Part shown: in pieces, positions 2,468-3,874 of the stretch
How positions within the stretch are numbered: the stretch's first letter is position 1
How the letters are laid out: every line of letters begins with the position of its first letter
Source of the DNA: Poriferisphaera corsica
GTDB taxonomy: Bacteria > Planctomycetota > Phycisphaerae > Phycisphaerales > Phycisphaeraceae
Assembly (NCBI RefSeq): GCF_007747445.1
Contig: NZ_CP036425.1
Coordinates: 1,410,175 to 1,474,174 of the forward strand
DNA length: 64,000 nucleotides
Direction of reading: 5' to 3'
The notes under the pieces: model-generated
Seen by the model: the letters and a program-made list of their open reading frames with translations, nothing else
Database searches by the model: none
Told to the model about the DNA's origin: nothing
Made by a program: the position numbers and the translations under genes

Positions 2468-2604
2468 GATATTATAATCCTCATGGAACAATATAAGTCT
2501 TCATGATACAAAATTGGTGGCGGATGGGTAGATGAAATGGCTGATGAAAGGGAAAAGGGGGGGTGATGTCGCTTTTAAGTCTCCAAGCGGGGTTTGGGGT
2601 TGGA

Positions 2605-2613
2605 TGTTATAAT
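2605..2613 (+). promoter_or_regulatory. Extended -10 promoter element for prfB
   Basis: TGTTATAAT matches the extended -10 form TGnTATAAT exactly. No good -35 hexamer is seen at the right distance, which is usual for extended -10 promoters. It lies in the spacer between the divergent deacetylase gene and prfB and predicts a leader of about 140 nt before the TTG start at 2758. Confidence 0.45.
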
Positions 2614-2757
2614 GATGGGCTGAATGGGGCGGAGGTGCGGTCATCTGGATGATGATTGCGATGACACTCCCGAGAAGATCTCCGGCACCGGCGGTGCGGG
2701 GTTTGGAAGATGTGTCTGAACTGATTCGAATTACTGCTAACGCTTTGGAGACGAGCC

Positions 2758-3874
2758 TTGAAGCACGAAAATATTGCTGGTTTGCTCAAGGATATGGAGG
2801 CGCGAATTTTAACGACTCGCGACTCTCTTTAACTACGATGCACAAAAAGAGCGCTTCAATGAGTGCGAAGAAAAGATGGGGGCGATGGATTTCTGGGATA
2901 ATCAGGAGAAGGCGAATGAGATCGTTGCGACGCTGAAGGGGATTAAGGCGAAGCTGGGGCCGTTCGATGAGATTGCGCAGAAGGTTGAGGATGCGGTGGT
3001 GTTGTGGGATATGGCGGAGGAGATGGACGATCAGGATAGCCGGGATGAAGTGGACGGCATGATTGATGATCTGCATCAGGAGTTGGATCGTTTGGATACG
3101 ATGCTGCTGCTGTCTGGTAAGTATGATGACAGGAATTGTTATCTGTCGCTGTACTCGCGCGAAGGCGGGACGGAGGCGCAGGACTGGACAGAGATGATGA
3201 TGCGGATGTACTTGTATTACTTTGAAAAGATGGGTTGGGATGTCACGGAAGTGAATAAGACGCCCGGCGAAGAGGCGGGGTTGAAGGATGTGACGTTGTA
3301 TGTGAAGGGCGGGATGGCGTATGGGTATTTGAGTGCAGAGCGCGGGACGCACAGGCTTGCGCGCGTGAGTCCATTTAATGCACAGGGGAAACGGCAGACG
3401 AGTTTTGCGGCGGTGGATGTGATTCCGGAATTTCCTGATACGGGCGGGTTGGAGATCCCGGATGGTGAGCTGGAGATCACGCCGTTTGCGAGGTCGAGTG
3501 GGCCTGGCGGGCAGAACGTGAATAAGTTATCGACAGCGATCCGGTTGGTGCATAAGCCAACGGGGATCATGATCGTGTGTTCGGCTGAGCGTAAGCTGGA
3601 GCAGAACAAGAAGCGTGCGATGTCGATCTTGAAGGGTAAGCTTGAACTGCTTGAGGAAGAAAAGCGTCAGGCTGAGCTGAATAGTGCGACAGGCGGGAAG
3701 ATGGAAATGGGCTGGGGATCACAGATCCGCAGTTATGTTTTCTACGATAACCGTGTGAAGGATCACCGTACGAACTACGAGCAATCAAATCCACAGAATG
3801 TGATGGATGGTGACCTGCAAGGGTTTATCGATGCGGAATTGCAGCGGAGAGCGAAGGCTGCCCCCGGAGTGTAG
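2758..3874 (+). CDS. prfB: Peptide chain release factor 2, made by +1 programmed frameshift
   Basis: RF2 releases the nascent protein at UGA and UAA stop codons. The main frame carries the codon-recognition motif SPF (in RVSPFNAQG) and the catalytic GGQ loop ([11 protein letters not shown]). The first 24 codons are in another frame: TTG at 2758 with GGAG 7 nt upstream, reading [20 protein letters not shown] then RDSL, then CTT TAA at 2827-2832. A +1 slip on CTT continues at AAC (2831) as NYDAQKERF, which matches the LDYDAKKERL type sequence that follows the shift in other bacteria. The joined product, join(2758..2829,2831..3874), is about 371 residues, the normal RF2 length. The zero frame is closed upstream by TGA at 2722. 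The stop at the shift site is UAA, not the usual UGA, and the usual Shine-Dalgarno-like stimulator is missing. Confidence 0.9.
2827..2833 (+). promoter_or_regulatory. prfB +1 frameshift site (CTT TAA C)
   Basis: Slippery CUU U followed by an in-frame UAA and C. In known prfB genes the site is CUU UGA C, with an AGGGGG-like element three bases upstream; the stop is read only by RF2, giving autoregulation. Here UAA could be read by RF1 as well, and the bases before CTT (cgactcgcgactct) contain no Shine-Dalgarno-like run. The nearest GGAGG is about 25 bases upstream, too far to act in the known way. Confidence 0.8.

Follow-up and report, generated by a model that had tools for sequence, protein, structure and literature searches.

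A conserved hairpin upstream of the prfB shift site in Phycisphaerae as a probable replacement for the Shine-Dalgarno stimulator

The prfB locus

The window, by which we mean the whole stretch of 64,000 nucleotides of the Poriferisphaera corsica genome (one contig of 4.29 Mb) that was analysed, carries on its forward strand a prfB gene laid out in two reading frames, the prfB frameshift being the standard bacterial example. A zero-frame lead of 24 codons runs from a TTG start to a CTT (2758-2829), the shift site CTT TAA C lies at 2827-2833, with CTT at 2827-2829, TAA at 2830-2832 and C at 2833, and the main frame, which encodes the release factor RF2, is read past the +1 shift from 2831 to 3874. 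This +1 frame is open from 2813, following a stop at 2810-2812, to a TAG at 3872-3874, and it holds no ATG, GTG or TTG 5' of 2876. When CTTT is counted as one leucine, the fused RF2 has 371 aa; residues 6-363 align with solved RF2 chains (best chain 9fy1_8) and residues 11-361 match the prfB model TIGR00020 at 414.8 bits (cut-off 370), the junction being included in both cases. An earlier note, made from the letters of the window, had proposed that RF2 needs a +1 slip at CTT TAA C from a TTG-started lead of 24 codons, with matching protein on both sides, and the frames, the solved chains and the model all bear this out. A genome of the same genus (G001) encodes an RF2 that is 96% identical and shares both the CTTTAAC and the lead, except that GTG stands where the window has TTG; most of the other close relatives compared start with ATG one codon 3' of the window's TTG.

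The genome also holds RF1 as an intact, separate gene (prfA, 360 aa), a tRNA-Leu with the anticodon GAG and a 16S rRNA whose 3' end retains the anti-Shine-Dalgarno (anti-SD) sequence CACCTCC intact, so the parts needed for the mechanism proposed below are available. SD sequences were counted at 29 of 45 start sites in the window, against 22 of 45 after shuffling, and by a rough tally, 27 of the window's 49 long open frames examined end in TAA, 13 in TGA and 9 in TAG. On the minus strand, at 653-1522 and 1625-2491, lie two adjacent and alike genes with a RFDDGYLSNYTLAFP motif, which we take to be probably polysaccharide deacetylase-like lipoproteins that originated by duplication.

Upstream of the shift codon, the prfB lead can form a hairpin from a 5' arm CGCGAAT (2801-2807), a loop of 7 nt in the class consensus (2808-2814) and a 3' arm ACTCGCG (2815-2821), both arms showing class-wide covariation, and a 5-nt spacer ACTCT (2822-2826), which includes the E-site codon TCT, joins it to the CTT. 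Counted from the C of CTT as 0, the 5' arm occupies -26 to -20, the loop -19 to -13, the 3' arm -12 to -6 and the spacer -5 to -1. In the window's own stem, five pairs are followed by an A.C mismatch at 2806/2816 and this by a T-A pair, and since A2806 and C2816 are unpaired, the predicted loop in the window is larger than 7 nt; at -4.7 kcal/mol, this hairpin is the third weakest of 207. The earlier remark that the spacer has no obvious pseudoknot was fair, but the hairpin just upstream, at 2801-2821, had been overlooked. A search of window positions 2600-3100 against Rfam 15 gave no curated match, only three matches to snoRNA models, all far under the cut-offs.

Comparison with related loci

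The class of the window, Phycisphaerae, was judged by named relatives. A class-wide search matched 185 of the 198 class genomes, and 120 new regions were taken from among the matches listed, the incomplete matches G299, G302 and G334 being left out of the class sample. Outside the class, only the most similar loci were drawn, from a phylum sample of 149 genomes. Loci with repeated sequence were removed before any count was made, and 272 distinct loci were kept. The class sample, in which, from the way it was gathered, the window's own family (36 loci) is over-represented, comprises 174 distinct loci; 163 of these are frameshifted and 11 are not, and among the 163 the stop is TAA in 41 and TGA in 122. 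In the window's family, 28 of the 36 loci sampled are frameshifted and eight are not, with TAA in 23 of the 28 and TGA in five.

The stop at the window's shift site is UAA, read by both RF1 and RF2, in place of the RF2-specific UGA. The earlier note had pointed to UAA in place of the usual UGA, and had suggested an alignment with related Phycisphaerae at base 2831 and a single-base sequence error as one explanation. The alignment shows TAA also in G001 and in 23 of the 28 frameshifted family loci, which upholds the first point and contradicts the error. When the frameshifted loci of every source (240 in total, 71 with TAA and 169 with TGA) are placed on a tree, at least 21 switches between TAA and TGA are required. 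TAG is the stop at none of these 240 sites, C follows the stop in 237 of them, and the shift site is equally far from the RF2 body in all 240. TAG is likewise found at 0 of 8,164 frameshifted prfB sites in the accessible text of a published survey, in which CTTTAA makes up 1.4% (Prince et al. 2025, PMC12421855), and the GeneTack motif for the site is given as YTT_TRA_C in the part of PMC3711429 available to us. The hairpins at UAA sites are not stronger than the others (-9.70 versus -10.53). In raw counts, 65 of 67 UAA loci have a hairpin without GGGA; this association was gone when independent pairs were compared (1.5 for, 1.0 against), and so nothing is claimed from it. Four Lachnospiraceae prfB loci (L102, L105, L109 and L111, three of them titled Eisenbergiella) combine CTTTAAC with a strong SD (-12.8), so UAA and the absence of an SD are separable.

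At least six of the seven pairs, in a single register, are formed at 148 of the 163 frameshifted class sites. When 712 registers were scanned, 91% of the 163 class loci had at least six pairs at this site, against 35% for the next best register. The most frequent form is CGCGGAT-N7-ATCCGCG-ACTCT-CTT, and the variant stems include CACGGAT/ATCCGTG, CCCGGAT/ATCCGGG, CCCGCAT/ATGCGGG, CGCGCAT/ATGCGCG and CGCGGGT/ACCCGCG. In an alignment of 82 sequences, which took in only rows with at least six pairs, the column pair 6-24 is GC in 52, CG in 12, GU in 12, AU in three, UA in one, UG in one and unpaired in one. A possible extension of the stem, GAG/CTC (columns 1-3 with 27-29), was rejected, as it is paired in just 55 to 73 of the 82 rows and its bases adjoin or enter the E site. 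In the loop (2808-2814 in the window, and its equivalents in relatives), leucine is written as TTA or TTG in 66 of 111 hairpin loci, and these codons account for about 10% of the leucine codons in these genes.

Most of the seven pairs are supplied by the peptide Ala-Arg-Ile..Ile-Arg-Asp, so that a test of the pairing has to use the synonymous positions, namely the pairs Ala3/Arg'3 and Arg3/Ile'3. Under a null that fixes the amino acids and samples codons by the usage of the gene in question, both synonymous pairs would be expected in 19.4 of the 163 class loci and are present in 145, and all seven pairs would be expected in 12.0 and are present in 131. Within the window's family the figures for both synonymous pairs are 27 of 28 against 3.7, and among 110 loci outside the training of the covariance model they are 94 against 13.0. 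The null test was first made on rows chosen for at least six pairs and was rerun without that choice. On the tree (a quick LG tree with one parsimony reconstruction, restricted to the 207 rows with at least six pairs), double changes on the same branch number nine at the pair 2802-2820 (random mean 0.99) and seven at the pair 2805-2817 (random mean 0.87). Fifteen of these 16 double changes exchange one Watson-Crick pair for another, and 25 of the 31 single changes at the two synonymous pairs enter or leave G-U. Pairing is also retained where the protein changes: in L037, L087 and L093, Ile is replaced by Met and the Arg codon is CGC for CGG, and L011 keeps pairing with amino acid changes to Val and Thr. 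The excess of synonymous pairs, the double changes and the single fixed register argue that RNA pairing itself is under selection, and on this comparative evidence our confidence is high that selection maintains the hairpin as an RNA element of prfB frameshifting.

The selection on the pairing goes with the frameshift: in the 11 class relatives whose frame is uninterrupted, the number of pairs is two to five and never higher. Among them, L008 has lost the frameshift and kept Arg-Ile..Ile-Arg-Asp-Ser with five of seven pairs, and L027 still forms both synonymous pairs, also with five of seven overall.

The AGGGGG-like SD element 3 nt upstream of CUU is absent from the window. A duplex between the window's site and the 16S tail of the same organism has an energy of +0.1 kcal/mol, against -10.7 kcal/mol for the Escherichia coli site, in agreement with what had been noted before. 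Taking a duplex energy above -3 as no SD, a threshold of our own choice, 117 of 234 Planctomycetota frameshift sites have no SD pairing, and 115 of these carry a hairpin of at least six pairs; the hairpin is present in 88 of the 110 sites with weak and in four of the seven with strong SD pairing. Many other families of the class have CCCGGAT/ATCCGGG, which leaves the GGGA of the 3' arm near CTT. A middle pair that is mostly G-C, as seen in the window's order and in family f82, does away with the GGGA and leaves the stem in place, as would be expected if the stem, and not a residual SD, is what matters. The frameshift persists alongside five pairs or fewer in 15 of the 163 class loci, 12 of which have a weak CGGGA, AGGGA or AAGGA and three a CGAGA. 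The reverse is seen in families f88 and f80, which have no stem and one of CGGGA, AGGGA or AAGGA; such frameshifts without a hairpin, with AAGGA or CGGGA/AGGGA near CTT, were seen in L345 and L349 (f80) and in L332, L336, L340, L342 and L370 (f88).

A covariance model of the site has matches in 168 of the 198 class genomes. In a phylum sample of 294 genomes it has matches in 37, of which 20 belong to the window's class. Ten of the 17 matches outside the class were inspected; eight are prfB sites, and seven of these have two to five pairs. The remaining one, L260 (genome G439, family f103, of another class), reads CGCGGAT-N7-CTCCGCG-ACAGT-CTTTGAC, with six of seven pairs and no SD pairing (-0.9). 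Six or more pairs are formed at none of 12 frameshifted Planctomycetota loci that were chosen from outside the class for the similarity of their proteins, and among these L158, L164 and L168 have a clear SD. As L260 is the only six-pair site outside the class among those inspected, the hairpin is nearly, though not wholly, limited to the class. Three records titled Isosphaera, Leptolyngbya and Alphaproteobacteria (L075, L082 and L096) hold a Phycisphaerae-type prfB with the hairpin, and are probably mislabelled MAGs.

Discussion

The earlier note had offered, as one possibility, that another stimulator replaces the missing SD, and the covarying hairpin, which throughout the class stops 5 nt short of CTT, lends weight to it. 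We put at roughly 0.82 the probability that the site is an autoregulatory prfB +1 frameshift in which a 5' hairpin stands in place of the SD as stimulator, and our confidence that the hairpin is the stimulator itself, as the comparisons suggest, is fairly high.

The window shares with E. coli-type prfB a lead of about 25 codons closed by an in-frame stop, CUU_U, a C that follows this stop, an RF2 continued in the +1 frame and tRNA-Leu(GAG); it differs in having UAA and not UGA, no AGGGGG 3 nt upstream and a hairpin 5 nt upstream. The closest parallel for the hairpin is artificial. In E. coli extract, an upstream hairpin stimulates +1 frameshifting at CUUUGA with about 60% of the SD effect, as described in the available portion of Huang, Cho and Chang 2018 (PMC6321510), where it has 12 bp and its effect is seen only without RF2. 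That hairpin shares with ours the place just upstream of the E site, the shift codon and the proposed mimicry of the SD duplex, whereas its stem is designed and GC-rich and that of the class is a natural 7-bp stem kept by compensatory change. A further likeness is offered by the 5' stem-loop of T4 gene 60, which a review proposes to pull the mRNA 5'-ward by re-forming at the mRNA exit; bypassing there is long and involves a take-off stem and nascent peptide signals, unlike the one-base slip of prfB (PMC5009743, as far as its accessible text goes). The same 2016 review says that 5' mRNA structure only 'perhaps' stimulates +1 frameshifting. According to the accessible sections of a 2013 paper, an SD duplex is possible at a distance of 5 to 6 nt on the 5' side of the P site, which overlaps the place of the stem of a refolding hairpin, and either pulling or a 'wheel chock' is offered as mechanism (PMC3639245). 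The CTTTAA minority of Prince, Lin and Feaga (2025, PMC12421855) resembles the window in that UAA replaces UGA; it is described as not fixed in clades, whereas in the window's family UAA is the majority and the SD is missing. That paper terms the SD-like element of prfB hyper-conserved and almost universal, and its main text contains neither 'Planctomyc' nor 'hairpin'. In the literature covered, which lies mostly outside subscription journals and was available in part, we found no report of natural prfB frameshift sites that contain a hairpin, nor of prfB frameshifting in Phycisphaerae.

In the mechanism that we propose, the ribosome translating the 24-codon lead would unwind the short hairpin at 2801-2821, and with CUU in its P site and UAA in its A site the hairpin could form again in its wake. 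Five nucleotides would then separate the base of the refolded hairpin from the P-site codon downstream, which puts the base at about the position of an SD/anti-SD duplex, and refolding might drag the mRNA 5'-ward or prevent backward movement. With termination slow at UAAC, tRNA-Leu(GAG) could re-pair from CUU to UUU, and RF2 would then be made in the +1 frame. Action of the hairpin on the ribosome, the pulling step and feedback by the level of RF2, and at UAA also of RF1, would all belong to this mechanism. We give even odds to the fuller statement that the class has replaced mRNA-rRNA pairing by a refolding 5' hairpin that pulls the ribosome one base forward, with a UAA version sensing RF1 plus RF2; under it, a sensor stop of UAA, as in the window's order and scattered elsewhere, would make the switch read total class-I release factor. 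The earlier suggestion of feedback through RF1 plus RF2 at UAA is, on the sequences compared, possible. RF1 can compete at UAA, and the feedback there may be either weaker or responsive to the total of release factors.

Several observations count against the hairpin explanation. RF1 also reads UAA, which makes an adequate supply of RF2 puzzling; the window's stem is weak, 15 class loci do without it and 88 sites combine it with weak SD-like pairing; L027 retains both synonymous pairs with the frameshift gone; and the hairpin tried in vitro has 12 bp and is effective only without RF2.

Among the alternatives, the one that survives best, which we nevertheless regard as unlikely, is that the hairpin is real and acts indirectly, by slowing trailing ribosomes, by insulating the site from misfolding or through transcription or mRNA decay, and that the frameshifting depends on nothing more than CUU, the weak E-site codon UCU and UAAC/UGAC. 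It would account for the 15 of 163 class loci that manage without the hairpin and for the conservation of the spacer ACTCT itself (169 of 207 hairpin loci), and the case for direct stimulation is one made from sequence comparison; yet an indirect role sits poorly with the one fixed 5-nt spacing, with the weaker pairing where the frameshift has been lost and with the hairpin at 115 of the 117 SD-less sites. It is much less probable still that the inverted repeat is a by-product of the conserved Ala-Arg-Ile..Ile-Arg-Asp codons, complementary by chance. The amino acids alone do set most of the seven pairs, and Arg-Asp-Ser-Leu occurs in Lachnospiraceae prfB too, but both synonymous pairs are present in 145 of 163 loci where 19.4 are expected, they change together on the tree, and L008 kept the peptide, lost the frameshift and has only five of seven pairs. 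A vestigial frameshift, with RF2 starting internally at ATG 2876, seems very improbable: a 332-aa frame with that start exists, but it drops 39 N-terminal residues of the 371, most of them aligned with solved RF2 chains, and the lead, the shift site and the hairpin are all conserved class-wide. A sequencing or assembly error that hides CTT TGA or an open frame can be dismissed: a single genome could not have excluded it, and UGA is the rule elsewhere, but TAA is present in G001, in 23 of 28 family loci and in 41 of 163 class loci from separate genomes.

If a 5' hairpin is indeed the stimulator, this natural and class-wide case with its compensatory changes would make the idea of mRNA tension testable with one shift codon and two kinds of duplex. 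The loci compared also indicate that prfB frameshifts cannot be recognised from an SD-like motif and UGA alone, and they raise the question of autoregulation where RF1 reads the sensor stop.

Outside the Planctomycetota, a clostridial family (that of L098/G506) was represented by 30 loci, 24 of them frameshifted, with an SD in 20 and none in four. Three of the SD-less loci, L382, L383 and L409, have an upstream fold of -14.6 to -14.8 kcal/mol that ends directly beside the shift codon, against a mean of -4.8 in the SD group, and the fourth, L387, has a weaker one of -8.3. The contrast gives p 0.0014 in a rank test made post hoc, with L382 and L383 being close kin, and the folds of L382, L383 and L409 may possibly reflect an independent swap of the SD for a hairpin.
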